64,000 nt of DNA, taken from positions 424,044 through 488,043 of the forward strand of contig CANFCK010000001.1 in the NCBI GenBank assembly GCA_947445035.1, given 5' to 3'. The DNA is from Deltaproteobacteria bacterium. Lineage in GTDB: Bacteria > Myxococcota_A > UBA796 > SXON01. Made by a program: the position numbers and the translations under genes. Position 1 is the stretch's first letter; each line of letters begins with the position of its first letter. Below the pieces are notes generated by a model that was not told the origin of the DNA, ran no database searches, and worked only from the letters and a program-made list of their open reading frames with translations. Shown piece after piece: positions 5,101 through 21,583 of this stretch.

Positions 5101-8100
5101 GACCGTGGGGTAGTCGGCCAGCTTGAAGCTGTCGTCCCGATCCAGGGCGTAGGCGTCACGCACCTCGGCGAATATCTCCGCCTGCTTGACGGTGTCGATG
5201 CCCAGGTCGGCTTCCAGCTCGTAGGCCGGATCGATTTCCGATACTTCGTAGCCGGTTTTGGCAGCGACGACGGCCACCAGTCGGGCAAGGACCTCCGCCG
5301 TCGGCGCCCCAGCCGGCGAAGCGGCGGCCGCCGCTGCAGCGGGCGACGCGCTCGCGGCAGCCACCGGGCCCGCCGCCGCGCTCCCCGCCTTCTCCGCCAC
5401 CTTGCCGGCCATCCAGCCGGCCAGCTTTTCCACGGTCGAGTAGTCGGCCAGCTTGAAGGTGTCGTCCCGATCGAGGCCGTACGCCTCACGTACTTCGGAG
5501 AAGATCTCCGCCTGCTTCACGGTGTCGATGCCGAGGTCGGCCTCCAACTCGTAGGCGGGATCGATCTCCGAGGTTTCGTAGCCGGTCTTGGCGGCGACCA
5601 CCGAAATCAGCCGGGCGAGCACCTCGCTGGCGTCCACCGCCGGCGTCGCCGCCGCGGGTGTCACGCCCGTTGGGGCCGCCGCCGTCGCCTGCTCCACGAC
5701 GCCCGCCCCGCCGCCCTTCTGGGCGACTTGTCCCGCCAGCCAGCCCGCCAGCTTCTCGACGGTCGAATAGTCGGCGAGCTTGAAGCTGTCGTCCCGATCG
5801 AGGCCGTAGGCCTCGCGCACTTCGGAGAAGATCTCCGCCTGCTTCACGGTGTCGATGCCGAGGTCGGCTTCCAACTCGTAGCTGGGATCGATCTCGTCGA
5901 TGCCGTAGCCGGTCTTGGCGGCGACAACCGCGGTAAGCCGCTCAAGGACGGCCTTCCGGCTCGGCGTTGACGATCGTTGCGCCTGCGACGCCCCCGGGGA
6001 GTTGGGCGCCGACCTGGCGCCCTTCTGCACGCTGGGCTCGACCACGAGACGCAGCTGCCGTGCCTCTACGACCAGCTTCCCGGGCCCACCACCGACGGAC
6101 TGCAGCCACGCCGCGTGCGCCGCCGCGTTGACGATGCGGGCATCGCCGTTGGCGCCCTTCTTCCACGCCGCGAGCGCAAGCTGGCTGCCGAAGCCGGCTG
6201 CCAGTCGCAAGGCATAGGTGAGGTCGTAGTGGCCGCCAGCGCTGAGCGTGAGCTGTCCCAGGTCGGGATCAGGCTCTTTCAAGTTGGGGATCGGCGGGAC
6301 AAGCTGGTATTGGAGCGCCTTGACCGCGACGGTGTCCTCGAGGCCAGCGCCCATCGGGTGGCCGGTGTAGCCCTTGGTGTTGGCGATGACCATCTTGGAT
6401 GCAGCCGCGCCAAAAGCATGGGGAAGGCTGGCCATTTCAGCGGCAGCCGACCCGCCACGGGCCGGGGTGTAGGTCTCGTGGCTGAGGAAGACACAGGACT
6501 CGGCGAATCGGGCGTGGCTGACCCCAGCTGCAGCGACGACTTTGTCGGCGAAGGTCTTGACCTCTCGGGAGATGTGGGACGCGTCGAGTCGGGTGCCGTG
6601 GAACGCGCTGTTCGCAATGTGGGTGCCGAGCAGCTCGGCGACCGGCGCCATGCCCCGCGCGGCGACGTCCGGGGCCTTTTCCAGCACCAACGCCGCGGCC
6701 CCCATGCCGAGGATCATGCCGTGCCGACGCCGATCGAAGGGGAGCGCGGCCAACTCTACTTCAGCAGTGGTGGTGGCGGCCCCCGCGGCCAAGAAGCCGG
6801 TGCCGATCCACTCCATCAGGTCGTCGCTGGTCACATCGTCGGCGCCAACCACGATGACCCGGTCGCACCGGCCCACGCGGATCCAGTCCTCAGCGATGGC
6901 AAGCCCCTGCGTGGTGCTGGCACAAGCGGCGTTGATCGCGGTGTTCGGCCCGCGCGCGCCGAGGAACTGGGCAAGCTGGCTGTGACCCATCGCCAGGATC
7001 TGGAACAAGAACCGGCGGTCGAAGTGACCCTCGCCGTCGCCACCGTTTTTCTTGAGCTTGTGGACGAGCTGATCGTACCCGGCAAACGCGCTGGCGAAGA
7101 CCAGCCCCGTCGTGTCGCGCAGCGCCTCGGGAAGAGCCCATCCGGTCGCGACATCCTTTCCGGTCGTAGTCTTCCGCCAGGTGCGTACCAGCGGGATTCC
7201 AGCGTCACGCAGGGCCTCCAGCGCGGCCGCAATCGCGAGCTGGGTGGTGATGTCGAGGCTGCGGGCGAACGACGCATCCACGCCGTAGTCGGCGACCAGG
7301 TCGAAGTGAGACTTGCGCCCGGCAAGGCGAATGACCTGATCGCGACGTTCGACCTCCTGGAAGCCGCCTTCGCCCGTGACCGGATCCTTGGTCAGCCGCA
7401 CCACGTTCTTGGCCAGGATGCGGTCCTGATCGGCTTCGGACACCTGGCCGATGCGGTTTTCCCCCTTGAGCATGCGCTGGATGCCGTCGGGCTCAAAGAC
7501 TTCGGTGCCGCCGGGGAGGCCGAGCGATGCACCCGAGCAGACGATGCGGAGGGTGCCGGCTTTCGGCGCGCTGGCGGGCGCAATCGGCGCCGGACCCGCC
7601 GCAATGGCTTGCGACGCGATCGGCGCAGCAATCGCAGCGACCGTCAGCGGCGCCTGCGCCGACTGGAACGCCGCCCATGCCGCGCCAAGGAAGCCCTGCA
7701 ACGCCGGTAGCATCGCGGTCGCGAACGTTGCGGGATCGACCCCGCGCGGGTCCTGCCCGGCGATCTGCGCCAGGAAACGTGCCGCGCTGTCGGCGGGAAG
7801 CATCGGCGCGCCAACCGTGGGGGCCATCACCGGCACGACAGCCGCAATCACCGGCACCACCTCCGTCGCGGCGCGCCGTTCGCGCATCGTCGACGGCTGC
7901 GTGGCTCCGGTGATCCTGGCCGCGTAGTCCACCAGCTGCCGCAGCGTGCGGTGCTGGCCCAGCTTGTAGGTCGGGTCGGCCTCCAACCGGAGGGTTTCCC
8001 GGACGGTGGCCATGATGTCAGCCGTCTTGACCGTGTCGATCCCGAGGTCGGCCTCGATGTCGTGGTCCAGGTCCAGGTCCTCGACCCCGAGCCCTGTTCG

Positions 8101-11100
8101 TCGCGACACGATCTCCAGGATGATGCGCGCCATCTCTGGGGTGCCGACGCGCTCGACGCTGGTCCCGGCGGGCGGGGCGGGAGCGCGTGCGGCCAAGAGC
8201 GGGGTGGTGCTGCGACGCGGTTCGGTCGGTGCGAAGATGTCGGTCGTCGCTTGGGGCCTCGCGGACACCGGGAACCCCAGCACGAAGAGCTCGGCAAGGG
8301 TGTCCAAGAACGAGCTGACGCCGCCCCGCTTGGGCTGGTTGGTGTAGAGCGCCCGATGGGGGCGGTGCTTCAGTATCTGGACGACGAAGCCGGAGAGCGC
8401 ACGTTTGGGGCCGCACTCCACGAAGATGCGGGCCCCGTCGGCGTACATGCGCTCTACCTGTGCGATCCACTCGACCGGAGCCGCGACCTGGGCGGCGAGG
8501 TTCTCGATGATCGCGGCGCGAGCGCCTTCCCCGGTGGGGTAGTAGCGGCTGTCGACGTTGGTCGTGATGCGACGAACCGGCTCACGGACGTCCAGCCCTT
8601 CGAGCACCCGCTTGAGAGGCGCGCTGGCCGGGGCGACGATGCGACTGTGGAACGCGTGGCTGACCGGCAGCGGGTACACGGTGATGCCGCGGCTCTTGAA
8701 CAGTTCGCCCGCCGCTTCCACGGCGTCCGTCTCGCCCGCGATCACCGTTTGCGTGGGGCTGTTCTTGTTGGCGGGGACCACGTAGCCGGGCACTTCGGCG
8801 AGCACTTCCATGACCACGTCGGTGCTGGCGGCGATGCCCGACATCTTGCCGACGTCATCGAGCTTGACCCCCGCCATTTCGCGACCGCGCGCGCTCACCG
8901 CGACCAGCGCGTCCCTGAAGGTCAAGATTCCGGCCGCCACCAGCGCACCGTACTCACCAAGGCTGTGCCCCGCGACCATGTCAGGGCGCACCCCGTAGGC
9001 GGACAGCAGTCGTAAGAGCGCCACATCGACGGTCAGCGTGGCCGGCTGCGAGATCGCGGTGTCGCGAAGTCGTTCGAACTGGTCTTCTTCGCTCATCGCC
9101 TCGTCGCGACGGATCAGCGCAGTCAGCGGCTTGCCAAGCAGCGGTTCCATCACCGCATCGGCCTCGCGGAAGGTCTCGGCAACGATGGGATAGCGGTCGC
9201 AGAGGTCCAGGCCCATGCCCAGGTATTGCGAGCCTTGGCCGGTGAAGATGAACGCAATCTCGCCATCGCACGGCACGTCTTCCAGCGCAATGCCACGCTG
9301 CCGGAGCAGGTCGTAGCCCTTGCCCTTTTTGACGGCAGCGACCACCTTTTCGAGCTGGGCCAGCTGCTCGTCACGATCGACGGCATGCGCCGCCACACGC
9401 AGGGGGGCGTCGGCCTCGTACGGAGCGGAAACGGCACGTTCGACCAGCGCCGCACAGCGTTCGACCATCTCTTCGGGGGAGTCGGCGCTCAGCGCCCAGA
9501 GGCCGGTGGGGACGGGAATCGCGGCGACGGTGCGGTTGGGGGCGCCACCGGTCCTCGTCGACGCCGGGCCGTTCGCAGGCGCAACGATCCGCGGCGCGTC
9601 GCTGGGGCCTTCTGCGACCGAGGTGGTGACCGGGGGCCACGCAGAGACGGCCACGGTGGTCGCCGACGCCTTGGCCATCCCGGGCCGGAAACCCTCCAAG
9701 ACCATGTGGAAGTTGGTGCCGCCGAACCCGAAGGCGCTGATGCCCGCAAAACGGGGGCCGGCATGCTCCCACGACTCCGCTTCGGTCTGCACCTGGAGCG
9801 GAACAACGGAGTAGTCGATGTCGGGGCGGGGGCTCTTGTAGTTGATACTGGGGGGCAGCACGCCGTGGAAAAGCGCCAGGCTCATCTTGAGCGCGCTGGC
9901 GGCGCCCGCGGCGCTCTTGAGGTGACCGATGTTGGACTTGATCGAGCCGATGCGCGCCGCGCGCGACCGGCGGCCGGGCCCGATCAGGTCGGCGAGCGCG
10001 TCGACTTCGACCTTGTCGCCGACCACCGTCGAGGTGCCGTGGCACTCAAAGATGTCCACGTCCGCGGGATCGACGCCAGCGTTCTCATACGCCCGTCGGA
10101 GCGCGCGCTTTTGTCCTTCGGGATTGGGCGCGGTGATGCCCTTCCCCTTGCCATCCGAGCTGCCGCCGAAGCCGCGAACCACGGCGTACACCCGGTCGCC
10201 ATCGCGCAGCGCGTCCGACAGCCGCTTGAGCACCAGGATGCCGACGCCCTCGCCCATGACAAAGCCGTTGGCACCGGCGTCGAAGGGGCGGCTGCCGTCG
10301 GGCGACAGCGCCCCGATCTTGCAGAACTTGGCGTACGTCGCGACGCCCATGCTCCGATCGGCGCCGCCGGTCAGCGCCATGTCGAAGTCCCCGTCCTGGA
10401 GGCCCTTGACCGCCGCTTGGATCGCCGCCATCGAGCCCGCACACGCCGCGTCTGTCGTGAAGTTGGGGCCGCCGAGGTTCAATGCGTTGGTGATGCGCCC
10501 GGCGACGACGTTGGCCAGTTCTCCAGGCATGGAGTCTTCGGTGATCGGGGGCAGGTCCCGCTTGAGCTCATGCTCGTACGCAACGAGGATTGCCGCCCGG
10601 TCATCTGCCCGCAAAGCCGCGAAGCCGGGCACCTCATTGAGGGCCTTACGCATCGCGGGGAACATGACGCGGAGCGTGTACTCGTCGGTGATCTCGCCAC
10701 CCATCGAGTTCCCGAGAATCGTCGCGACGCGTGAGCGGTCGTACTGCCGGGAGTCCCCGTACCCGGCGTCGTCGAGCGCGTCGGCCGCCGCTTCGAGCGC
10801 CATCTGTTGGATCGGGTCCACCAGACGCGCCACGGACGGCGGGATGCGAAAGCGCTTAGGGTTGAAAGTGAAATCGGTGACAAACCCGCCGATCTTGGCG
10901 TAGGTCTTGTCGATCGCGCTCTTGTCCGGGTCCCAGTACAGCGCCGGAGCCCAGCGCGCCTCTGGCACCTCCACGATGCCGCTGAACCCGGCGATCAGGT
11001 TGTCCCAGAGCTGTGCGGCGGACGCGCAGCGCGGGAGTCGACACCCGAGCCCGATGATCGCGATGGGCTCGTGGGGATGGATGGACGCGAGGACGTCGGG

Positions 11101-11862
11101 GGCAGCAGGGGGCGTTGGTACCGGCGCCGTGATCGTCGGCCGCGCGTCCGTGGGGACCCAGGCGCGGACGGCGGCCAGCAGCGTCGGGAAGCGTCGCGCG
11201 ATCCCCGGCGCGTGCATCAACCCGGCGCCGCCTGGCCACGCTGCGACGAAGGCGTCATCGGCCTCGTAGAGCCCTCGGGCCGCGTCCTCGACGCCCTCGC
11301 CCCCGACCACCCGCCGGTACGCCTGGCTGGCCAATGACGCGACGAAGTTCTGGTCCGCGACGCGCCGGAAGTCGCCCGCAGCGATGCGTGCCAGCCGCCC
11401 GCCCAGCTTGGGCCCCAGCGGGAAGTAGCCCCCCAGGACGTCGCCGAGCACCACGCCGGCCGCCCGGGGCACCACCACTTCGGGAGGGTGCGGCCAGTCG
11501 AGCAGCAACGCGCCCAGTCCGGCGTAGGCCAAAGCGAGCTCACGAACGTCATCGGCGCCCGCGCGCCCGCCAGAGCCCAGCCCACGGAGGTACAGCCCCG
11601 CGAAGCCGGTTGGCACCTCGCCCGGGGTGGTCCTTTCCAGCCAGGTCGGCCGCGCCGGGTGCGGGGGACCGTCCATGACGATGATCGGCCCCGTGCCGGG
11701 CGCCCCTTCGGCCTGCCGGACGCGCACCCACGCACCCTCCGGGACGGCGGCGTGGTCGGCAGTGAGGTCCACGATCACCACGATTCCGGCTGCAAGCAGC
11801 GGCGTCGCCGAGGCGACAAACGCGGCTGGCAACAGGACGAGGCGGCTCGGAACCGACATCAA
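2140..11862 (-). CDS. Single-polypeptide PUFA/secondary-lipid-type polyketide synthase: N-terminal orphan region, KS-AT-ACP-KS-ACP-ACP-ACP-KR-DH-PPTase (3240 aa)
   Basis: KS1 'DAACAGSMAA' (~10.45 kb), AT 'GHSLGEYG' (~8.96 kb), ACP1 'LGIDTVKTADI' (~8.03 kb), KS2 'NAACASTTQ' (~6.93 kb), three tandem ACPs 'LGIDTVKQAEI' (~5.85, 5.52, 5.19 kb), KR 'LTGGTRGITAQVGLELARRG'...'VDYSAANE', DH 'DHAIDNVPVLPG', C-terminal PPTase 'GVDMEAIEAR...WSVKEAVLKALG'. Confidence 0.93.
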   Translation of the reverse strand: MMSVPSRLVLLPAAFVASATPLLAAGIVVIVDLTADHAAVPEGAWVRVRQAEGAPGTGPIIVMDGPPHPARPTWLERTTPGEVPTGFAGLYLRGLGSGGRAGADDVRELALAYAGLGALLLDWPHPPEVVVPRAAGVVLGDVLGGYFPLGPKLGGRLARIAAGDFRRVADQNFVASLASQAYRRVVGGEGVEDAARGLYEADDAFVAAWPGGAGLMHAPGIARRFPTLLAAVRAWVPTDARPTITAPVPTPPAAPDVLASIHPHEPIAIIGLGCRLPRCASAAQLWDNLIAGFSGIVEVPEARWAPALYWDPDKSAIDKTYAKIGGFVTDFTFNPKRFRIPPSVARLVDPIQQMALEAAADALDDAGYGDSRQYDRSRVATILGNSMGGEITDEYTLRVMFPAMRKALNEVPGFAALRADDRAAILVAYEHELKRDLPPITEDSMPGELANVVAGRITNALNLGGPNFTTDAACAGSMAAIQAAVKGLQDGDFDMALTGGADRSMGVATYAKFCKIGALSPDGSRPFDAGANGFVMGEGVGILVLKRLSDALRDGDRVYAVVRGFGGSSDGKGKGITAPNPEGQKRALRRAYENAGVDPADVDIFECHGTSTVVGDKVEVDALADLIGPGRRSRAARIGSIKSNIGHLKSAAGAASALKMSLALFHGVLPPSINYKSPRPDIDYSVVPLQVQTEAESWEHAGPRFAGISAFGFGGTNFHMVLEGFRPGMAKASATTVAVSAWPPVTTSVAEGPSDAPRIVAPANGPASTRTGGAPNRTVAAIPVPTGLWALSADSPEEMVERCAALVERAVSAPYEADAPLRVAAHAVDRDEQLAQLEKVVAAVKKGKGYDLLRQRGIALEDVPCDGEIAFIFTGQGSQYLGMGLDLCDRYPIVAETFREADAVMEPLLGKPLTALIRRDEAMSEEDQFERLRDTAISQPATLTVDVALLRLLSAYGVRPDMVAGHSLGEYGALVAAGILTFRDALVAVSARGREMAGVKLDDVGKMSGIAASTDVVMEVLAEVPGYVVPANKNSPTQTVIAGETDAVEAAGELFKSRGITVYPLPVSHAFHSRIVAPASAPLKRVLEGLDVREPVRRITTNVDSRYYPTGEGARAAIIENLAAQVAAPVEWIAQVERMYADGARIFVECGPKRALSGFVVQILKHRPHRALYTNQPKRGGVSSFLDTLAELFVLGFPVSARPQATTDIFAPTEPRRSTTPLLAARAPAPPAGTSVERVGTPEMARIILEIVSRRTGLGVEDLDLDHDIEADLGIDTVKTADIMATVRETLRLEADPTYKLGQHRTLRQLVDYAARITGATQPSTMRERRAATEVVPVIAAVVPVMAPTVGAPMLPADSAARFLAQIAGQDPRGVDPATFATAMLPALQGFLGAAWAAFQSAQAPLTVAAIAAPIASQAIAAGPAPIAPASAPKAGTLRIVCSGASLGLPGGTEVFEPDGIQRMLKGENRIGQVSEADQDRILAKNVVRLTKDPVTGEGGFQEVERRDQVIRLAGRKSHFDLVADYGVDASFARSLDITTQLAIAAALEALRDAGIPLVRTWRKTTTGKDVATGWALPEALRDTTGLVFASAFAGYDQLVHKLKKNGGDGEGHFDRRFLFQILAMGHSQLAQFLGARGPNTAINAACASTTQGLAIAEDWIRVGRCDRVIVVGADDVTSDDLMEWIGTGFLAAGAATTTAEVELAALPFDRRRHGMILGMGAAALVLEKAPDVAARGMAPVAELLGTHIANSAFHGTRLDASHISREVKTFADKVVAAAGVSHARFAESCVFLSHETYTPARGGSAAAEMASLPHAFGAAASKMVIANTKGYTGHPMGAGLEDTVAVKALQYQLVPPIPNLKEPDPDLGQLTLSAGGHYDLTYALRLAAGFGSQLALAAWKKGANGDARIVNAAAHAAWLQSVGGGPGKLVVEARQLRLVVEPSVQKGARSAPNSPGASQAQRSSTPSRKAVLERLTAVVAAKTGYGIDEIDPSYELEADLGIDTVKQAEIFSEVREAYGLDRDDSFKLADYSTVEKLAGWLAGQVAQKGGGAGVVEQATAAAPTGVTPAAATPAVDASEVLARLISVVAAKTGYETSEIDPAYELEADLGIDTVKQAEIFSEVREAYGLDRDDTFKLADYSTVEKLAGWMAGKVAEKAGSAAAGPVAAASASPAAAAAAASPAGAPTAEVLARLVAVVAAKTGYEVSEIDPAYELEADLGIDTVKQAEIFAEVRDAYALDRDDSFKLADYPTVEKLAGWMAERVAAKAAGSAALALATEAAPPPSAGKRAPEAPAAPDAGPESVAAEPTSAPVPGELPADFRVRRVVRVSHVKLPVSSLRGQVVWVLGGGPLATALRDEIDQAGARSRGDPDVVIDCGVPLLELFAQARALDAKRPRQWLAAIVPPSDLRGARDNGARAGLCKALGREWPACRARVVTTRAGWGEVDAARALVDELGEADRATEVWVGPGEREVAALAVEPVPTLGHWPEHPIAVLTGGTRGITAQVGLELARRGPCTLILVARTAPGADALDEEAARAQIRTELSAESKRVTPKMIDERLRPLRVAEEARQNVEDMRALGAEVTVRTVDMADGEAVRSLVAELREAHPRLDLVIHGAGVEESRLLADKDEVAFRRVYDGKAEGGLALAEALDGPSFFVSMGSIAGRFGNAGQVDYSAANEAMAQVCLRRPRSLHIAWTAWAGVGMAVRGGMEKLLTSRGVELLPPLAGARVLCDLVAAGVSGELVIAGGLGDFQSPAIHPLLDSVELVGDRAIARRTMSLSSDPWMADHAIDNVPVLPGVIGLEMMAGAALAAHPRGRYAGAEDITFSAPLKLHRDEPVHIEIIAAPDDEGTWTCVLRSTRKLKNGREQTTTHFEARIQLAEMPLLPALPSAYFPEERISQKEIYRRYFHGPRFQVLRGAEAVAVQGLLAAASVEHGPIAEGLLTEPLVLEAAFQAAGLHRMAIDGLMALPQSIDAVELVRSAVEGESLQVVVHARGTTYDIDVDGAEGRVLRVRGFRMVEKGPLDPSDRLTPPEGGWPSASLAVSADAQAELPRAEAVSLTTRGTPKRKADRLAGQVAANRAVAALVSDEFSIGRRASGQPVVEGARDVNVSITHIDGEALALAVRGAHAGVDMEAIEARSDAFAAEWFTEAERAWAHTPEDRTAVWSVKEAVLKALGTGMALSPREIDVHRVEAGRAEVTLSGEVAARHAALGGAPIRVRVSERAGRIVATAIFAA
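5080..5960 (-). repeat. Three tandem near-identical ACP-coding repeats (~325-bp period) inside the PKS
   Basis: Recurring DNA 'gtcggccagcttgaag.tgtcgtcccgatc.aggc.gta.gc.tc..g.acttcgg..aa.atctccgcctgctt.acggtgtcgatgcc.aggtcgg' around 5120-5200, 5440-5535, 5770-5860. Confidence 0.9.
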
Positions 11863-11945
11863 CGTGACCCGGGGGTCCGCTTCCTATCCGCCCACCGCGG
11901 GCAGTGCCCGTGACCTGCGCGTTACATACCCACCGAGGCTCGCAG

Positions 11946-12644
11946 ATGGTGTTCGCGTTGTCGTTCGCGCTGTGGAGTCTCGCAGCGCCCAGCGCCGAGG
12001 CCGCCGAAAGTGCGTTCGCGCTGCGCCCGCGCGTGAACCAGCGGTACCAGGACGTCATCCTGACCACCAACGGCACCCGTTGGCGCGGACGCGTCACCGA
12101 TCGCGGCGAACTGTACCGCATTCGGTTGGCCGACAACTCTGAGGTTGTGCTGCGCAAGGACGATATCGTTTCGGTCACACGAGAGCTACACCCGGCGCTC
12201 CTTCACAACGAACAGTGGTGCGCTCGCTTCACGCCCGGGTTTGAAGTAGCATTTGTCATTGCCGATGCAGACGGCGGCACGCAATATGGATTTTTCGGTG
12301 AGTTCTCGGTGGCCCGAAACTTCGGTGGCGCATTCGAACCCGAAATCACTCTTGCGCTGAGCCCGGTCGGGCCCAAGGACGGCGCGCTCAACGCGCAGCT
12401 GGGCCTCGGCATCCGCTACTACTTGCAGCCAGACAAGAAGGCGAAAGCATACACCAACACCCAACTGATTCTGTTCGGGACGCGCGGCGACCTTGGTCTG
12501 CGGACAGGCCCTGGTTTCATGTGGGATATATCGCCTGGCCTCGGCCTTGGCACCCACCAGGGTGTCACGTTGCTCATTCAAGATTCGCCCGAGGCGGTTG
12601 CCGTCGGCTACCACGCGGGTTTGACGGCGCAAGGCAGATTCTGA
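11946..12644 (+). CDS. Secreted/outer-membrane protein of unknown function
   Basis: ATG at 11946 followed by signal peptide 'MVFALSFALWSLAAPSAEAAES'; C-terminal glycine/aromatic beta-strand pattern; 84 bp from the divergent PKS start. Confidence 0.7.
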   Translation: MVFALSFALWSLAAPSAEAAESAFALRPRVNQRYQDVILTTNGTRWRGRVTDRGELYRIRLADNSEVVLRKDDIVSVTRELHPALLHNEQWCARFTPGFEVAFVIADADGGTQYGFFGEFSVARNFGGAFEPEITLALSPVGPKDGALNAQLGLGIRYYLQPDKKAKAYTNTQLILFGTRGDLGLRTGPGFMWDISPGLGLGTHQGVTLLIQDSPEAVAVGYHAGLTAQGRF

Positions 12645-12669: not shown

Positions 12670-13707
12670 ATGCCTCCTCCCCACCGAACTGTGTCGCCCC
12701 CCATGCGGGGTGACCGCATTCTGATCGTCGACGACGAACCACTCAATCTTCAGGTTTTCGACTACAACTTCTCCGACGAATACTCGTTATTGTTCACGGC
12801 GTCAGCCGAAGAAGCGCTGGAAGTCCTTCGGCGGGAACGGGTTGCGGTGGTCATCGCCGACCATCGGATGCCGGGGATGTTGGGCCTCGATCTTTTGGCT
12901 CTTTTGGCCAAAGAACAGCCGCAGGTCGTGCGCATGTTGCTCACCGCACACACCGACGTGCCCCTGTTGTTGGATGCAATCAATCGTGGGGTACTTTTCC
13001 GATACATTTCCAAGCCTTGGAACGCCGACCAGATGCGGCAGGACATCAAGCATGCCCTCGCACGCCACGTCCAGGAGGCCGAGGCGCAGCGGCGCCAGGG
13101 GCTGTCAGACGTGGTGCACGGCGCGGGGGCGATCGCCGCAGCCCTCGAGGGCGAACTCGCGGCTGCCCTGGCGGTGATGGACGCGCTTTCAGGTGGCGAG
13201 GGCGCCGATCGAGTGCGCGCCCTTCACCACAACGCGGGACGGGCGGCGGGCCGCGATCAGCTGTCCTGGCAGGCGTGCGAGCCTCGGGCGATCGTGGACG
13301 CGGCGCTCGCCTCCGTTGGCCGGCGGGTGCGGCAGGCTGGCGTCGTCGTCGACGTGAACCAGGTGGGTGCCACCCGCATCTTCGGAATGCATGGGCGCCT
13401 CTCCGAGGCACTCGCCGCCGTGATCCTCAACGCGGTCGAGTCTCTGGAGCGTCGGCCGGCGCCGCGGCTGCTCAGGGTACAGATCGCCGCGGCCGCCGGG
13501 GGGGACGTTCGCATCGCCGTCAGCGATGGCGGCACCATCCCCGCGGCCGTCCTCGCCAAGGCCACCCAGCTTTTCTTCAGCGGCGGCGACGGCGAGGGGC
13601 TTGGGCTTCCTGTTGCGGCGGCCATCCTCACCGAACACCGCGGCCAGCTGGACCTCTCCGACGGCGGGCGCGGTGAGGTCGCGCTGGTCCTCCCGGGCAT
13701 GCGGTAG
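12670..13707 (+). CDS. Response regulator receiver protein with C-terminal HATPase-like domain
   Basis: REC: 'ILIVDDEPLNLQVF', 'VVIADHRMPGMLGLDLL', 'LLTAHTD', 'YISKPW'; C-terminus 'AAVILNAVESL...VSDGG...GEGLGLPVAAAILTEHRGQLDLSDGGRGEVALVLP' kinase ATPase-like. Confidence 0.85.
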   Translation: MPPPHRTVSPPMRGDRILIVDDEPLNLQVFDYNFSDEYSLLFTASAEEALEVLRRERVAVVIADHRMPGMLGLDLLALLAKEQPQVVRMLLTAHTDVPLLLDAINRGVLFRYISKPWNADQMRQDIKHALARHVQEAEAQRRQGLSDVVHGAGAIAAALEGELAAALAVMDALSGGEGADRVRALHHNAGRAAGRDQLSWQACEPRAIVDAALASVGRRVRQAGVVVDVNQVGATRIFGMHGRLSEALAAVILNAVESLERRPAPRLLRVQIAAAAGGDVRIAVSDGGTIPAAVLAKATQLFFSGGDGEGLGLPVAAAILTEHRGQLDLSDGGRGEVALVLPGMR

Positions 13708-13708
13708 C

Positions 13709-16495
13709 GTGGACAGCGCGCTCCCCAAACGCACCAACCCGCGGCGACGCACCCTTTTGCGGCTGGAGGCGGGGTCTCACGATCGCGAACGGGTGACCAA
13801 CCTCTCGGTCAACGGGATGTTCGTCACCGGCGCCACCGTGGCCGCGGCGGAGCGGGGCGCGCTCTGGATTCCAGGAGAAGACCGGCCCTTCGAACTGACG
13901 TTCCGGCACGTGTACCAGCGGCCCTCGGGCGTCGGAGTGCACTTCGAGCCCGTCGATCGGCGAACCCGGACCGAGCTTCAGGCCTACGTCCATCATCATC
14001 ACGAACAAGCGCGCCTCCAAGCGATCGAGGCGCAATTGCTCGGCTCGCCCGCCAACCTCAAGCCAATTGCCGAGCGGGAAGCCACCCACAACGTGCTGCG
14101 GCCGATCGAAAAGTCGCGACAGACTTTGCGCATCCATCCCTCGGTTGGCCACCCCGGCGTCTTGTCGCGCATCGCGGCGATCGATGAGCATAATGCAAGA
14201 ATCACCGTTTTATTGGAGGGGCCGGCGCAGCTAGACGAGTTCGACCCCGTCTTTCTGTCGATGAACCAGGGGCAGGCGCTCTACCTGGCCGATACCGTCG
14301 TGGAGAGCCGGACGGGCGCGGTCGCGACGCTGATGCTCCCCGAGCGGCTTTTCCGCCCCGAGCGGCGACGGCTGGAGCGCGAAGGAGTCGACGCGACTCA
14401 ACTCCGGTTCACCGTCGGCAGCCAAGAATGTCGTGCGCAGGCCGTTCAGTGCGATGCCAACGGTATCGCGGTGCTGGCGGCCCCCGAAGAGGCTCTGGGC
14501 CTTTCGGTGGGGGACATCCACGAAGGCTGCCGCCTGGTCAACGCCGCCGGGTCCCGAGACCTGCAGCCGCTCCGGGTGGCTTGGCGCGAGCGGCGGCCGG
14601 ACGGCGAGGTCGCGATCGGCTTCGAGCGGGTCTTCTCCCGAGCCCCCCTTTCGATTGCGGAGCACGCCTTTCCGCTCCACGCGCCCACGCGGGCACAGAA
14701 GGCGGTGGCGACCATCGAACACCTGGTGGGAAGCGCCCTCGGCAAGGTCGGGATTGGGGACACCGCGGCCGCGCAGACCTGGGTCATGTCCGACAAGGAC
14801 GGCCGCCCGGTGGTCCACCTCGTCAACGCCACGTTTGACCTGGCGCGCCCGCCGGCCGAGTTCACCGTGGTACTGATTCCGCCGCCGTACGGCCGTACCA
14901 AAGAGACGCCGAGCGTGCTGGCGCTCACGTTGGTCGAGACCTTCCGGGCGGCGCGACTCCCGGTTCTGGTCTTGCGATGGGACGGTATCAATCACGTGGG
15001 CGAGTCGTGGCGCGATGAGCGGTGCAGCGCACCGGAGCACGCCATGCTCCGCTACACCCAGTCCCAGGCCGTGCGTGACATCGAAACGACGGTGACAACG
15101 CTCGGATCGAGGTTCGGTCTACAGAAGATGCGCACGGTCGTCGTGAGTTTTTCTCTCTCCGCTGTCGCGACTCGCAGATACCTGGCTGCCGGCGGCGCCG
15201 GCATCGACTACTGGATTTCGGCGATGGGCGCAGCCGACGCCCGAGACACCATCCAAAACGGCAACGGCGGCGTGGACCTCGTGGGCATGAAGCGCCGCGG
15301 TGAGAGCCTGGGCATCCGGCTGATCCAGGGCCACCTCGTCGACGCCGACCGGCACTGCCAGGACCTGCTCGATCACGGGTTCGCCGACCTGGAGGACGCC
15401 CGCTACGACATGGCGCGGGTGTCCCAGCCGGTGACGTGGTTGTGCGGCCGCCACGACTTCTGGGTCAACGTCCACCGGGTGCGGGACGCCATGACCGTGC
15501 CGGCCAGCGGGGCTCGCGAAGTCGTCGAACTCCCGACCGGCCATTTCGTTCGGACGAGCAATGAAGCGCTCGCTACTTTTCGGTTCATCGCCGAGCGCTG
15601 CCTCAAACAGCTCCACGGCCGGGAGATCAAGGGCGTCACCCCTTCGACCTGGGTGATGGAACGCACGCTGAAGCGTGAACGGGCGCGGCTTCGGGAGACG
15701 CCGTTCGACGCGGTCGCCTACTGGCGAGACTACCTCCTTGGCAATCGCGACAACCCGCTCGGCTTCGACCTGCTCGCCTTGACCGACGAGTACAACGAGC
15801 TGATGGGCCTCCAGATGGAGCGTCTCGAGCTCACCTCCGGCATGCGCGTGGTCGATCTCGGCTGTGGGACGGGGAATGCCGTCGCGGCCATGGTCCGGAC
15901 CGTCGGTGACCGCGCCCCGGGTCTGGTGATCGACGCGGTGGATCTGGTTCCGGAGGTCTTGGAGCGCGCGCGGCGAAATGTGGCGGCAGCAGCGGCGGAG
16001 ATCGGAGTGGCGCTCCCGACGGTCCGCTATCAGGTGGTGGACCTGACGTTGCGGGAGCGGCCGAACCTCCCGTTCGCGCATGGCAGCGTCGATGCCGTGC
16101 TGATGTCCCTGGTGCTCCCCTACGTGGGCGAGCCCGGACCGCTCTTGGATGAGGTCGTGCGGATCTTGCGCCCCGGCGGTCGTCTCGTCGTCTCTACACT
16201 GCGCCCGGATGTCGACATGAGCGGCACCGTGGCACGCCTTCGGACGAAGTTGGAGCGCGGAGACACCCAGGTTTTGGAGGGCTGGGGTGCGGCGCGCCTT
16301 GGCAGCGCGCTGCGCGACTACCTCAACCGGGCGGCGAGCCTGCTCGAGTTCGAGCTGGATGGACGTTTCCGCTTCCACGAGCGAGAGGACCTGGAAGTGC
16401 GGATTCGCCGGCACGGGCTGGTCATCCAGTCGGTCGAGCCCACATTCGGCGACCCACCCCTGGCCTTGGTGCTCACGGCGATCAAGGATGGCTGA
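13709..16495 (+). CDS. Fusion protein: PilZ (plus YcgR-like region) - LuxD-like acyl-ACP thioesterase/alpha-beta hydrolase - class I SAM-dependent methyltransferase (928 aa)
   Basis: GTG start at 13709; PilZ motifs 'RTLLR' (RxxxR) and 'NLSVNG' ([D/N]xSxxG); LuxD-like 'LVLRWDGINHVGES', 'VVVSFSLSA', 'ARDTIQ', 'CGRHDFWVN', 'TGHF'; MTase 'VVDLGCGTGNAVAAMV' and 'LRPGGRLVVSTL'. Confidence 0.88.
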   Translation: MDSALPKRTNPRRRTLLRLEAGSHDRERVTNLSVNGMFVTGATVAAAERGALWIPGEDRPFELTFRHVYQRPSGVGVHFEPVDRRTRTELQAYVHHHHEQARLQAIEAQLLGSPANLKPIAEREATHNVLRPIEKSRQTLRIHPSVGHPGVLSRIAAIDEHNARITVLLEGPAQLDEFDPVFLSMNQGQALYLADTVVESRTGAVATLMLPERLFRPERRRLEREGVDATQLRFTVGSQECRAQAVQCDANGIAVLAAPEEALGLSVGDIHEGCRLVNAAGSRDLQPLRVAWRERRPDGEVAIGFERVFSRAPLSIAEHAFPLHAPTRAQKAVATIEHLVGSALGKVGIGDTAAAQTWVMSDKDGRPVVHLVNATFDLARPPAEFTVVLIPPPYGRTKETPSVLALTLVETFRAARLPVLVLRWDGINHVGESWRDERCSAPEHAMLRYTQSQAVRDIETTVTTLGSRFGLQKMRTVVVSFSLSAVATRRYLAAGGAGIDYWISAMGAADARDTIQNGNGGVDLVGMKRRGESLGIRLIQGHLVDADRHCQDLLDHGFADLEDARYDMARVSQPVTWLCGRHDFWVNVHRVRDAMTVPASGAREVVELPTGHFVRTSNEALATFRFIAERCLKQLHGREIKGVTPSTWVMERTLKRERARLRETPFDAVAYWRDYLLGNRDNPLGFDLLALTDEYNELMGLQMERLELTSGMRVVDLGCGTGNAVAAMVRTVGDRAPGLVIDAVDLVPEVLERARRNVAAAAAEIGVALPTVRYQVVDLTLRERPNLPFAHGSVDAVLMSLVLPYVGEPGPLLDEVVRILRPGGRLVVSTLRPDVDMSGTVARLRTKLERGDTQVLEGWGAARLGSALRDYLNRAASLLEFELDGRFRFHEREDLEVRIRRHGLVIQSVEPTFGDPPLALVLTAIKDG

Positions 16496-19106
16496 GCCCA
16501 CGCTGACGTCGGCGTTCAGAGCCGACGTCAGCGCGGAGATGGTCAAGAGCCTGCGCTTCGCGGCCACCCTCGGTGTCGTCGTGGTGCCGAGCTTCTACGT
16601 TCTCGATCGCATCGCGCAACCGGAGCACGCCGGGCTCTTCCTGACTTGGCGGCTGGCCGCCTCGGGGGTCTTGGCGCTGGTCCTGGCTGGTGTGTACACC
16701 CGGCGCGGGCGCCAATCCGTGACCGCCCTTGGGTACCTGGCGCTTTTGTCGGCCGCGCTGCCGGTGTCGGCGATGGTCTCGTACCTCGACCCGGGGGTTT
16801 CGCCCTACTATGCCGGTTTGACACTGGCGATGTTGTTCAACGGGGTGCTCTTCCCCTGGCGTCCGGGGCACACCGCTGCCGTCAATGCGGTGATCGCCGG
16901 GAGCTTTCTCCTGCCGCCGCTTGTGCACGGTGGGCCCTCCGACCTCGCCGCCTTCACCAACAACAGCTTCTTCGTCGTGGTGACCGCCGTCATCTCCACG
17001 ATGAGCGCCTGGGTGCTGTTTCAGGAGCGGCGGCGGCGTTTCGAGCTGTCGTGGTCCTTGGAAATGCGCTCCGCGGACCTCTCCGCCGCCAACGAGATGC
17101 TCCGCCAGGTCGACAAGCTGAAGAACCGCTTTTTCGCCAACGTCTCCCACGAGCTTCGCACGCCGCTGACGCTGGCGTTGTCGCCCTTGGCCGCTCTTTT
17201 GGAGGACCCGGCGCTACCCAGCGCCCTCCGGCCCACCGTCAAGTCGCTGCACCTCGACATGCTCGCGCTGCGGCGCCGCATCGAAGATCTGATCGACCTC
17301 GCCCGCTTGGACGCGGGGCGCCGGGACATCGGCGCCGCCCCAGTGGACCTCCGCGCGATCCTATCGCTGGTGGTGGCCGCTGCACGCCCGTTTGCGGAAC
17401 GCCAGGGCATTGACCTTCGTGTCGACATCACGACGTCGGTCCCCACCAAGGGTGACGCGGGCATCCTTGAACAGGTGGTGTTCAACCTGCTCTCCAACGC
17501 GCTGAAGTTCACACCACGCGGCGGCACGGTGGGGTTGAGCCTTCGAGAAGCAGGACCCGAGTTGGTGTTCGCGGTCGAGGACACCGGGCCGGGAATCGCG
17601 CTGGAGGACCAGGAGGATCTTTTCCTGCGGTTCGGGCGCTCCGCGCAGACGCCCAGCGCTCGAGGCGCCGGCCTCGGCCTGGCGTTGGTGAAGGAGTTCG
17701 TGGAGCTTCACGGAGGCACGGTGGCCGTGCGTTCGCGGCTTGGGCTGGGAACCACCTTCGAGGTACGGCTGCCCGCCTCGGACGGTGTGCCCGAGGCACA
17801 ACGGAGCGCCCATGCCCGGCAACTGCTCCTCGATTTCGAGAGCGAGCTCGGCGCCGCCAGCCTCGGGCCCACCGGGGTCGTGCCGACAGAAGACGGACGC
17901 GCCTTGGTGATGGTGGTGGAGGACAACGCCCGCCTCCGTCAGTTCGTCAGCAGCTCGCTCGCCGACGACTTCCGCGTGGTTGAGGCAGCCGATGGGCTGG
18001 AGGCGCTGCAGCTGCTCCGGTCGGTCCTGCCGGTGGTCATCGTCTGCGACATGATGATGCCTCGGATGGACGGCCGCGGGCTGGTCAGCGCCGTGCGCGG
18101 CGACCCGGCGCTCCGTACACTGCCGGTGATTCTGCTGACCGCGCACGACGACGCCGAAGTGCGCGACGACGCCTTGGAGCTGGGCGCCTCCGACTTCCTC
18201 ACCAAGCCCTTCTCGGTGCGCGAGCTGCGCGCCCGCGTCCGGAACTTCGTGGTGCTGCGTTCCGCGGAATTGTCGCTGTCGAACACCAACGCCGCGTTGG
18301 GCCGGGCGCTTGGCGAGGTGCGCGACGCGCAGGTCCGGGCGGTTCGCGCGGAGAAGCTCGCCGCCATCGGGCAGTTGGCATCCGGCATCGGACACGAGGT
18401 GAAGAACCCCGTGAACTTCTTGCTCAACTTCGCGAGGCCTTCGCGCAGCCGCCTGCAGAAGATCGGAAGCTCAGTCGAGAAGTTGGACGGAGGGGCCCCC
18501 ATCCTGGCCGAAGTGGCGGCGGTGGCCGAAGCGCTCGACCGGATCGTCGAGGGCGGCGAACGCATCGTGACCATCGTCAACGGGCTTCAGGCGTTCGCGC
18601 GTGGGGGTCAGGCGCGGGTGCCGGTCAGCGTCGATGACGAGGTGCGCGGCGTGCTCCGCTTGGCGGAGGGCTCGCTGCCCGCTGGCGTGCGGCTTGAGGT
18701 GAGCCTCGGCGCGGTCGGAACGGTGCTGGGCAGCCCGGTGAGCGTGGGCGCGGTCACACTGAACCTCGTGTCCAACGCGGTGCAGTCGCTTTCCGGGCCG
18801 GGCAGGGTGTGGGTTGAGACCTCGGTGGAGGGCGACCATGTCATCTTGGTCGTGCGCGACGAGGGTCGCGGCATTTCGGCGGCGGACCGGGCTCGGATCT
18901 GGGATCCGTTCTTCACCACCCGCGCGGCCGGGGAGGGCCTCGGGCTGGGCCTGGCGTTGGTGCACCGCATCATCCACGACGACATGGGCGGGCAGGTCGA
19001 TCTCGAGAGTGAGCTGGGCGAGGGGACGACCTTCCGCGTGCGCATGCCCCGGGCTGGAGGGGACAACGTCACGGCGTGGTCTGACCTGAGCCAACCGGCG
19101 TTCTGA
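16488..19106 (+). CDS. Membrane hybrid histidine kinase with two transmitter modules around a receiver (TM-HisKA-HATPase-REC-HisKA-HATPase)
   Basis: ATG 16488 overlaps previous stop; hydrophobic N-terminus; 'FFANVSHELRTPL', 'VFNLLSNALKF', 'GLGLALVKEFVELHGG', REC 'VIVCDMMMPRMDGRGLV..LTAHDD..LTKPF', second 'QLASGIGHEVKNPVNFLLNF', 'GEGLGLGLALVHRIIHDDMGG'. Confidence 0.93.
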   Translation: MAEPTLTSAFRADVSAEMVKSLRFAATLGVVVVPSFYVLDRIAQPEHAGLFLTWRLAASGVLALVLAGVYTRRGRQSVTALGYLALLSAALPVSAMVSYLDPGVSPYYAGLTLAMLFNGVLFPWRPGHTAAVNAVIAGSFLLPPLVHGGPSDLAAFTNNSFFVVVTAVISTMSAWVLFQERRRRFELSWSLEMRSADLSAANEMLRQVDKLKNRFFANVSHELRTPLTLALSPLAALLEDPALPSALRPTVKSLHLDMLALRRRIEDLIDLARLDAGRRDIGAAPVDLRAILSLVVAAARPFAERQGIDLRVDITTSVPTKGDAGILEQVVFNLLSNALKFTPRGGTVGLSLREAGPELVFAVEDTGPGIALEDQEDLFLRFGRSAQTPSARGAGLGLALVKEFVELHGGTVAVRSRLGLGTTFEVRLPASDGVPEAQRSAHARQLLLDFESELGAASLGPTGVVPTEDGRALVMVVEDNARLRQFVSSSLADDFRVVEAADGLEALQLLRSVLPVVIVCDMMMPRMDGRGLVSAVRGDPALRTLPVILLTAHDDAEVRDDALELGASDFLTKPFSVRELRARVRNFVVLRSAELSLSNTNAALGRALGEVRDAQVRAVRAEKLAAIGQLASGIGHEVKNPVNFLLNFARPSRSRLQKIGSSVEKLDGGAPILAEVAAVAEALDRIVEGGERIVTIVNGLQAFARGGQARVPVSVDDEVRGVLRLAEGSLPAGVRLEVSLGAVGTVLGSPVSVGAVTLNLVSNAVQSLSGPGRVWVETSVEGDHVILVVRDEGRGISAADRARIWDPFFTTRAAGEGLGLGLALVHRIIHDDMGGQVDLESELGEGTTFRVRMPRAGGDNVTAWSDLSQPAF
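16501..16533 (+). promoter_or_regulatory. Perfect 13-bp inverted repeat (7-nt loop) just after the hybrid-kinase start codon
   Basis: cgctgacgtcggc-gttcaga-gccgacgtcagcg read directly. Confidence 0.55.
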
Positions 19107-19116
19107 TGCCGCGCAC

Positions 19117-20232
19117 CTAACCGCCCTGTCGCCACTCCAGCGTCGGGCGGCCGAGGTGGTAGCCCTGTAGATAGTGGGCGCCGCATTGAACGGCCGTCGC
19201 CTCTTCGGCGGCGGTCTCGACACCCTCCGCGATGAGCTCGGCGCCGGTCGCCGACGCGAAGCTGGCCAGGAGCTGGAGGAGTCGCTGCTTGCGCGGCTCG
19301 CGGTCGGCGTTGCGGACGATGGACATGTCCGCCTTGATGAACGCCGGAGCCAACTCCGCCAGGACGGAGAGGCTGTTGTAGCCGCTGCCGATGTCGTCCA
19401 CAGCGATGCGGAAGCCCCGACGGCCCAGTTCTTGGAGCGCGTCCTCCGCGCCGTGGAAGTCGGACAATGGTGCTCGCTCGGTGATCTCAAGCACCACACG
19501 GTCCGCCCAGGGCTCAAGCGCCGCAAACCCCTTGACGCCCTCTGCCGACGCGAACTGCGCGGGGTGGGTGTTCACGAAGACCGTCAGACTCGGCGGGACC
19601 CGCTGCAGCCACCTTGCCGCCAGCCCGCTGACCAGTTCCCCGAGGTGTTGCACCCGATCGCATCGTTCGACGGCGTCCAGGATGCTCATCGGCCCGTCCA
19701 GACGCGGGTGTCGCGAACGGAGCAAAAGCTCCGCGGCGTAGAGGCTGCGCGTACCTGCCCGCACGATGGGCTGCACGGCGAGCGAAAGCAGGTCGCCGTC
19801 CAAGCACTCCTGAAAGAGCCGGTAGTGCAACGCGGCGTCGGTCGCGTCGCCGACCGCCTGCCGGACGTGGGCCACCGTCTCTTCGAGGTGCCGGACCTCG
19901 GCCTCGAGCTGTTCGGCCTGAAACGGGCGCCGCAAAACGCGGTGGGCCAGCCCCGCGGACAGCGCGCGGTCGGCCTCCTCGGTTGAGGCCGCCGCGACGA
20001 GGACGCGCATCGCGCCGGGCGCGCAGTCACGCGCGCGCGAGAGCAGCTCGATCACTTCGGTGACGCCAAGCTCGTCCGACGCCAGCAGCACGTCGACCCG
20101 CAGCGAGGCGATGTGGTCCATCGCCTCGGCCGGGGTGGCCACCGCAACCACAACATGGCCCGCCTGCGTCAAAACGCGGTACACGGAGCGCCGCATCGCT
20201 TCGTTGGCGTCGGCGAGCACGATGCGAGCCAT
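19117..20232 (-). CDS. Receiver-like domain plus EAL domain (cyclic-di-GMP phosphodiesterase family)
   Basis: 'MARIVLADANEAMRRSVYRVL' REC-like; EAL motifs 'ELLLRSR', 'VFVNTHP', 'VLEITER', 'IAVDDIGSGYNSL', 'FIKADMSIV', 'LIAEGVET', 'YLQGYHLGRP'. Confidence 0.9.
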   Translation of the reverse strand: MARIVLADANEAMRRSVYRVLTQAGHVVVAVATPAEAMDHIASLRVDVLLASDELGVTEVIELLSRARDCAPGAMRVLVAAASTEEADRALSAGLAHRVLRRPFQAEQLEAEVRHLEETVAHVRQAVGDATDAALHYRLFQECLDGDLLSLAVQPIVRAGTRSLYAAELLLRSRHPRLDGPMSILDAVERCDRVQHLGELVSGLAARWLQRVPPSLTVFVNTHPAQFASAEGVKGFAALEPWADRVVLEITERAPLSDFHGAEDALQELGRRGFRIAVDDIGSGYNSLSVLAELAPAFIKADMSIVRNADREPRKQRLLQLLASFASATGAELIAEGVETAAEEATAVQCGAHYLQGYHLGRPTLEWRQGG

Positions 20233-20374
20233 CGTGGCCACGATTAACTCGCCGGGCGCGTTGGAGGCCGCAAAATCGTCGCTACTGGTTCCAGGGATGC
20301 CATGGCAGCACGATAGAGCCCTGGAGTGCGCGGCGTCGGGGACGGGATGATAGCCGTGCCGGCCGGAGCTCCCC

Positions 20375-21583
20375 ATGCGCATCCTCGTCGCCGACAAGCT
20401 CGCCCCGTTTGTGAAGGGGCACCTCCAGGACATCGGCGCCATCGTCACGATCGACACCACTTCGCGCGATGCGGCGCTGACTGCGCGCATCGCAGAGCTG
20501 GACCCGGAAGTGCTCATCGTGCGCAGCACCAAGGTGACGGCGGCCGATGTCGCCGCCGGGCGCTCGCTTTCGCTGATCATCCGCGCTGGCGCCGGCGTCA
20601 ATACCATCGACCTGGTCGCCGCTTCGGCCAAGGGGGTCTACGTCACCAACTGCCCCGGCAAAAACGCCGTTGCAGTGGCCGAGCTGGCCATCGGCCACAT
20701 GATCAATGCCGACCGCCGCATCAGCGACAACGTTGCCGCGCTCCGCGCCGGAAAGTGGGACAAGAAGAACTTCGGCGTGGCGCGTGGCCTACGCGGGCGC
20801 ACCCTCGCCATTCTCGGCGCCGGGCAGATCGGCCGCGAGGTCGCGGTCCGCGCCGCCGCCATGGGCATGAAGCTCGTCGCGTGGCAGCGCACCTTCCCCG
20901 ACGCCGACGCCGCCGCGCTCGGCGTGGTCGACGCCCCCACGATGGAGGCTGCGGTGCAGTCGGCGGACGTGGTCAGCGTGCACCTGGCCCTGGTGAAGGA
21001 AACCCGTGGTCGCATCGGGGACAGCGTTTTTGCGGCGATGCGCCCCGGCGCCACCTTCATCAACACGGCCCGCGCCGAGGTGGTCGACAGCGACGCCCTG
21101 CTGCGCGCGGTGCGTGAGAAGAAGCTCCGGGTCGGCACCGACGTCTTTCCGGACGAGCCCACCGCAGCGCAGGCCGACTACCACCACCCGCTGGTGGACG
21201 AGCCCACGGTGTACGGCACCCACCACATCGGCGCCAGCACCGACGAGGCCGAAGAAGCCGTCGGCGAAGAGTGCGTCCGCATCGTCGCCGCCTACCGCGA
21301 CGGAGCGCCGATCCCCAACTGCGTGAACCTTGCGAAGCGGACCGCCGCCACCCATCTGCTGGTCGTGCGCCACGCGGACCGCGTCGGCGTGCTTGCCCAC
21401 GTGCTCGGGGTCCTGCGCGAGGCCGGCGTCAATGTCCAAGACATGCAGAACATCATCTTCTCGGGGGGTGAGGCGGCCTGCGCCCGCATCGCCATCACCG
21501 CGCCGGTCTCGGCCGCGGCGCTCTCCCGGATCCAGAGCGATTCCAACATCTACGCGGCGTCCTGCGTCGCCATCTCGGAGTAA
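20375..21583 (+). CDS. serA: D-3-phosphoglycerate dehydrogenase
   Basis: 'LIIRAGAGVNTIDLVAASAKGVYVTNCPGKNAVAVAELAIG', 'LAILGAGQIGREVA', 'GATFINTARAEVVD', C-terminal ACT-like; adjacent to serC. Confidence 0.9.
   Translation: MRILVADKLAPFVKGHLQDIGAIVTIDTTSRDAALTARIAELDPEVLIVRSTKVTAADVAAGRSLSLIIRAGAGVNTIDLVAASAKGVYVTNCPGKNAVAVAELAIGHMINADRRISDNVAALRAGKWDKKNFGVARGLRGRTLAILGAGQIGREVAVRAAAMGMKLVAWQRTFPDADAAALGVVDAPTMEAAVQSADVVSVHLALVKETRGRIGDSVFAAMRPGATFINTARAEVVDSDALLRAVREKKLRVGTDVFPDEPTAAQADYHHPLVDEPTVYGTHHIGASTDEAEEAVGEECVRIVAAYRDGAPIPNCVNLAKRTAATHLLVVRHADRVGVLAHVLGVLREAGVNVQDMQNIIFSGGEAACARIAITAPVSAAALSRIQSDSNIYAASCVAISE

Follow-up and report, generated by a model that had tools for sequence, protein, structure and literature searches.

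The stretch of DNA analysed here (64,000 nucleotides, hereafter the window), which sits in a 5.27-Mb draft genome, encodes a 928-residue protein in which PilZ and YcgR-like domains are fused to a LuxD-like hydrolase and to a class I methyltransferase. The enzyme is a member of a conserved family, not an oddity, since the hydrolase-methyltransferase fusion was found behind a YcgR/PilZ module in about 55 of the 379 genomes sampled across the phylum. Its conserved partner is the hybrid histidine kinase encoded downstream, and not the polyketide synthase (PKS) on its other side. We tentatively propose that this c-di-GMP-responsive enzyme makes a methylated acyl product which serves the kinase of the next gene as a signal, a reading which we hold to be somewhat short of probable. 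The relevant features, in positions of the window, are the following.

12670-13707, plus strand: receiver and HATPase protein of 345 residues, first gene of the unit (Pfam matches)
13709-16495, plus strand: 928-residue protein made of PilZ, YcgR-like module, LuxD-like hydrolase and methyltransferase (ORF, domain scans, orthologues)
13733-13990, plus strand: PilZ domain 1, residues 9-94 (Pfam PF07238, E 3.4e-6)
14054-14638, plus strand: YcgR-N-like domain and degenerate second PilZ, about residues 116-310 (fold match)
14771-15628, plus strand: LuxD-like alpha/beta hydrolase, about residues 355-640 (AF2, Foldseek, profile A7)
15152-15154, plus strand: Ser482, predicted nucleophile in SFSLSA, aligned with LuxD Ser114 (AASLSA of 1tht)
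15455-15457, plus strand: Asp583, predicted triad acid in RHDFW, aligned with LuxD Asp211 (NDDW of 1tht)
15542-15544, plus strand: His612 in TGHF, predicted triad base, invariant in the family
15659-16492, plus strand: class I SAM-dependent methyltransferase, residues 651-928 (Methyltransf_11, E 1.9e-15)
16488-19106, plus strand: hybrid histidine kinase (Pfam HisKA, two HATPase_c and Response_reg; hydropathy)
19117-20631, minus strand: receiver-EAL protein, predicted c-di-GMP phosphodiesterase (Pfam EAL, E 3e-41; Response_reg at the cut-off)

The first gene ends with a TAG stop at 13705-13707, the enzyme ORF opens with a GTG 1 nt past it, and the start of the kinase gene overlaps the end of the enzyme gene by 8 nt, as seen in the sequence. 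This spacing makes a single transcript probable for the three genes (12670-13707, 13709-16495 and 16488-19106). The 345-residue protein matches Response_reg at residues 17-126 (E 5.5e-20) and HATPase_c at 243-336 (E 1.9e-8); its gene is kept upstream of the enzyme within the genus, and the same receiver-kinase layout is also found at loci L035 and L033. The receiver-EAL gene is convergent with the kinase gene, and its true start is probably downstream of where the ORF begins. A 246-residue protein without a Pfam match, encoded between PKS and signalling genes (11904-12644, plus strand), is 64-95% identical across the genus. The motifs on which the first-pass annotation had recognized PilZ, hydrolase and methyltransferase within a single 928-residue ORF are all present in the sequence, and a chimera or assembly artefact is ruled out by the occurrence of the same fusion in dozens of genomes.

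At the N-terminus, the signatures RTLLR and NLSVNG had been taken to indicate a PilZ domain, and PilZ 1 indeed passes the PF07238 cut-off (27.8 bits against 22.5). Its RxxxR motif reads R14-TLL-R18 and its (D/N)xSxxG motif N31-LSVN-G36 (residues 31-36); R12, R14 and G36 are invariant in 17 sequences, and the family profile A2 matches the PilZ domain of 8u0i (E 7.7e-7). The second, YcgR-like region proposed in the same annotation is real as well: residues 110-330 fold like YcgR and MrkH, the best matches of the N-terminal model (pLDDT 78), of moderate confidence and with low TM-scores over the whole segment, being MrkH, YcgR, PP4397, VCA0042 and MotI, and YcgR is the best, weak (E 0.009), PDB profile match of the module in the relatives. 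Within this module P211, R219, R220 and R224 are invariant in the family alignment. The second PilZ of the window's own clade keeps ERRRLER, but its DxSxxG motif is lost and reads CDANGI, which leaves the first PilZ as the only one that seems able to bind c-di-GMP.

The middle domain had been likened to LuxD on the basis of short motifs, and the structure search suggested at that time as a check ranks LuxD first. A profile built from 18 sequences finds LuxD (1tht) as the best solved structure, with E 1.4e-5 against 0.02 for the next match; with the 33 more diverse sequences of profile A7 these figures become 9e-8 and 6e-5. The AlphaFold2 model of the domain (pLDDT 91.7) gives the same answer in Foldseek, where both 1tht chains come on top (E 8.4e-16 and 6.6e-14) and the best of them is more than three orders of magnitude ahead of the first match other than LuxD (E 2.4e-12). 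Ser482, Asp583 and His612 are all invariant in the 33-member alignment; of the LuxD triad, which we take to be Ser114, Asp211 and His241, the alignment of the profile with 1tht reaches only the first two members, since it ends before His241 and leaves the position of His612 outside the aligned part. The LuxD-like RxDxxxxxGxS segment is conserved in the enzyme family, too. The curated LuxD models are not reached, either by the Pfam Acyl_transf_2 match (PF02273, residues 421-597, E 0.01, 15.6 bits against a cut-off of 20.3) or by the NF052253 match (14.1 bits against 420).

As for the C-terminal domain, its assignment to the class I methyltransferases is borne out by a Methyltransf_11 match over residues 715-828, above the Pfam cut-off, and by motif I, DLGCGTGN, at 716-723, whose residues G718, G720, T721 and G722 are invariant in 18 sequences. 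NCBIfam, Pfam and PDB profiles yielded no specific subfamily: the domain is of a very general type, whose acceptor cannot be read from sequence. An insertion of about 65-90 residues was observed inside the methyltransferase of the distant type I members (L030-L034, L036-L040; for types see below); the window's genus and L035 lack it. With the triad invariant in 33 sequences and the SAM motif in 18, hydrolase and methyltransferase both look active.

Within the order the fusion is present in 17 of the 62 other genomes, 18 counting the window's own, one further match being only a fragment. The hydrolase is joined to the methyltransferase in every relative fetched whole, always as one long ORF. 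In the sample of the whole phylum these ORFs have about 690-1300 residues, apart from a 631-residue copy cut by a contig end. A metagenome-assembled record labelled "Deltaproteobacteria bacterium" holds a copy at 86% identity, a peptide-pattern scan of genome contigs returned one same-genus locus only, and plasmid records held generic methyltransferases and no fused relative.

Two types of architecture can be distinguished. Type I, to which the window belongs, has two PilZ domains; type II, of about 800-920 residues, has the YcgR-type module only. In the type II members L079-L087, L090 and L091, which lack PilZ 1, RxxxR and DxSxxG are intact in the YcgR-type PilZ of all those examined. In most type I members, including the window's, the motif of the YcgR-type PilZ is degenerate and is carried by the added N-terminal PilZ; L030-L032 and L089 keep it in both domains. 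In the double-PilZ members L034 and L037-L039, the Ser of (D/N)xSxxG is replaced by Asn or Thr, and c-di-GMP binding may have been lost. Nearly all members keep one site with an intact motif, which is what one would expect if selection maintains c-di-GMP binding.

The gene neighbourhood is similarly conserved. In 33 of 35 assessable loci a hybrid kinase gene in the same orientation lies downstream of the enzyme, although a genome contains only 26-43 HisKA matches; three further loci were left out of the count for contig ends, and the two exceptions, without a kinase beside the enzyme, are L076 and L088. The window kinase features about six membrane helices, followed by HisKA, with a predicted phospho-His at about residue 221, HATPase, receiver and a second HATPase. 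Its sensor part resembles MASE8 weakly, and no Pfam family was found in the N-termini of four related kinases. Between the third and fourth membrane helix, all kinases looked at keep a GG..S.Y motif (DPGVSPYY in the window, TGGxxSxY in others), which is a candidate ligand site.

In 14 loci the gene after the kinase encodes an EAL or GGDEF-EAL protein; it runs opposite to the kinase gene in the five loci of the window's genus and in L078, and shares its strand in the other eight. The receiver-EAL adjacency is kept in L024, L025, L026 and L028; nine other loci have a GGDEF-EAL gene instead. EAL matches number only 1-9 per genome (8, 9, 6, 1 and 4 in the five genomes counted), and in G012 the single match of the whole genome is the kinase neighbour. 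This placement is far above chance, and several separate families of the phylum show it. In the window's EAL protein the motifs DDIGSGY, KAD, AEGVET and LQGY can be recognized by eye, so that it may be active. Motif retention within the enzyme, together with these EAL and GGDEF-EAL neighbours, supports indirectly the idea that the enzyme is controlled by c-di-GMP.

An MMPL gene adjoins the enzyme in 8 loci of the single-PilZ clade (type II), a clade other than the window's. In seven of them it sits between enzyme and kinase; in L082 it is found beside the enzyme at a contig end. The MMPL genes at L080:11285-13582 and L087:6219-8546, both between enzyme and kinase, and their counterparts at the other loci may encode a lipid exporter. 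In the same clade, a receiver-GAF-HisKA-HATPase gene after the kinase (L080:16309-18006, L083:688-2517, L086:1685-3814) might provide a relay partner. No exporter gene was identified in the window's operon.

The proposal of a signal synthase is made because its parts match the Phc system and the plan of the Rpf/DSF system, both discussed below. Starting from what is seen here, namely the domains, the invariant catalytic residues, the conserved fusion and the conserved gene neighbours, we infer c-di-GMP binding, substrate, methyl acceptor, secretion and sensing as follows. c-di-GMP would bind the N-terminal PilZ, and the YcgR-like module would relay the event; the LuxD-like domain would take an acyl chain from acyl-ACP via Ser482, by thioesterase action or acyl transfer; and the methyltransferase would methylate the released chain, most simply at its carboxyl, to give a fatty-acid methyl ester, possibly 3-hydroxylated. 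The hybrid kinase would sense the product in the membrane and signal via its own receiver and via the receiver/kinase partner, while the EAL or GGDEF-EAL neighbour would adjust c-di-GMP and so close the loop back to the synthase. Export of the product in the single-PilZ clade would be the task of the MMPL transporter.

The first-pass annotation suggested a different role, in which the acyl chain made by the divergent PKS is released and/or methylated by the enzyme. The PKS is a single PUFA-type synthase of 3240 residues (2140-11862, minus strand), featuring KS, AT, four ACPs, a second KS-like region, KR, DH and a C-terminal phosphopantetheinyl transferase. As had been noted, no thioesterase domain is found in it, and it adjoins the enzyme gene in the window's genome (G000) and in G048, G040 and G044, both observations being in favour of a partnership. 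The distribution of the two genes, drawn from draft genomes that are 76-94% complete, tells otherwise. The PKS is found in 10 of the 11 genomes of the genus, with 70-88% identity in the other genomes; it is on another contig than the enzyme in G045 and occurs without the enzyme in four same-genus genomes (G041, G043, G046, G047). Conversely, no such PKS was seen near the enzyme in the fetched loci of many other families. Moreover, PKS and enzyme are divergent and not co-transcribed. The partnership, already unlikely from distribution, was rejected on these grounds, and we give it a very slight chance: of the earlier reading, PilZ, YcgR-like module, LuxD-type hydrolase and methyltransferase stand, the PKS as source of the chain does not. 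The conserved downstream kinase had played no part in that reading. A methylated signal of the fatty-acid type is more likely than a service to the PKS, because a receptor-type kinase almost always adjoins the enzyme.

The same domains and neighbours would also fit a c-di-GMP-controlled tailoring of lipids, in which a methylated membrane lipid or fatty acid stays in the envelope, nothing is secreted as a signal, and the kinase senses the state of the envelope or regulates the enzyme. The lack of a recognizable exporter in the window's operon agrees with this, and a membrane-embedded sensor could read membrane lipids directly. Yet the MMPL gene beside the enzyme across a whole clade points to export, and the fixed pairing of enzyme and kinase is the usual pattern of a signal synthase and its receptor; we hold this envelope reading to be rather unlikely. 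The joining of a methyltransferase to a serine hydrolase within a single chain, beside a kinase, might instead suggest a reversible, CheR/CheB-like methylation of that kinase or of another protein, methyl esters being added and removed under c-di-GMP control, the more so as some family members match, besides LuxD, the methyl-ester esterase BioH. We regard this as improbable: by profile and by fold the nearest relative of the hydrolase is an acyl-ACP thioesterase, and family scans revealed no CheR or CheB homology. BioH matches (best E 0.0024, in some members), along with a weak BioC match of 30 bits, could also recall the BioC/BioH pair of biotin synthesis. BioC is, however, far below its curated cut-off of 185, BioH is not matched by the window protein, LuxD is a better match than BioH, and biotin synthesis has no use for a PilZ domain or for kinase and EAL neighbours, so that a role in this pathway has hardly any likelihood.

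The statement that no described protein has this layout holds for the non-subscription literature searched, the layout itself being common in this phylum. No description of LuxD together with PilZ was found there, and nothing relevant was retrieved for PilZ with methyltransferase and thioesterase, or for such a domain architecture. With more reserve than for the signal-synthase proposal, the data might be read as outlining an undescribed family of cell-cell signalling systems, spread over many families of one phylum and consisting of a c-di-GMP-switched synthase of methylated acyl compounds, a receptor kinase and a phosphodiesterase, with a lipid exporter in one clade. The known links between lipid quorum-sensing signals and c-di-GMP run through separate proteins; if the signal-synthase proposal is true, a synthase with its own c-di-GMP sensor, its receptor kinase and a phosphodiesterase would make up the whole loop in one cluster. 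It would also offer a signal system open to testing in many families of a single bacterial phylum, and a new setting, outside bioluminescence, for a LuxD-type acyl thioesterase.

LuxD is a myristoyl-ACP thioesterase/acyl transferase, which frees the fatty acid from acyl-ACP. The two proteins have in common a nucleophile elbow without GxSxG and the aligned Ser and Asp; in contrast with LuxD, to which it is about 15% identical, below all LuxD family cut-offs, the enzyme is fused to PilZ and methyltransferase and is not part of a lux operon. With YcgR, MrkH, VCA0042 and MotI, its module shares the YcgR-N plus PilZ fold with an ERRxxxR linker and, in many relatives, an intact c-di-GMP motif. It differs from them in being joined to two enzyme domains and, in the window's clade, in having an extra N-terminal PilZ which holds the motif, while the YcgR-type PilZ lacks DxSxxG. 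A c-di-GMP receptor domain is also built into BcsA, the PilZ-regulated cellulose synthase, whose fold, substrate and membrane location are different.

Among signalling systems, Rpf/DSF (RpfF-RpfC-RpfG) combines an enzyme for a fatty-acid signal with a membrane-bound hybrid kinase and a phosphodiesterase for c-di-GMP, and the window's gene cluster follows the same plan, with a putative signal enzyme, a hybrid kinase and a predicted c-di-GMP phosphodiesterase. The proteins are unrelated, RpfF having a crotonase fold and RpfG being a HD-GYP phosphodiesterase, and the window's putative synthase, unlike RpfF, itself carries the predicted c-di-GMP sensor. In the Phc operon, a methyltransferase makes 3-OH MAME/PAME, the signal being a 3-hydroxy fatty acid methyl ester, the sensor kinase PhcS has its phospho-His at 230, and PhcR contains a receiver and a kinase domain (PMC8578825, PMC6989110, PMC11960443). 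Phc of Ralstonia and Cupriavidus (PhcB-PhcS-PhcR-PhcQ) and the window's operon both include a SAM methyltransferase, a membrane sensor kinase with an early phospho-His and a receiver plus kinase protein, the 345-residue protein having the layout described for PhcR; this likeness of neighbours is one of layout only, PhcB being compared by its published description. PhcB, as described, consists of a methyltransferase domain only, with no PilZ or LuxD-like part, unlike the window enzyme. Each part of the system is of a known kind; to the extent covered here, their combination and its setting are new.
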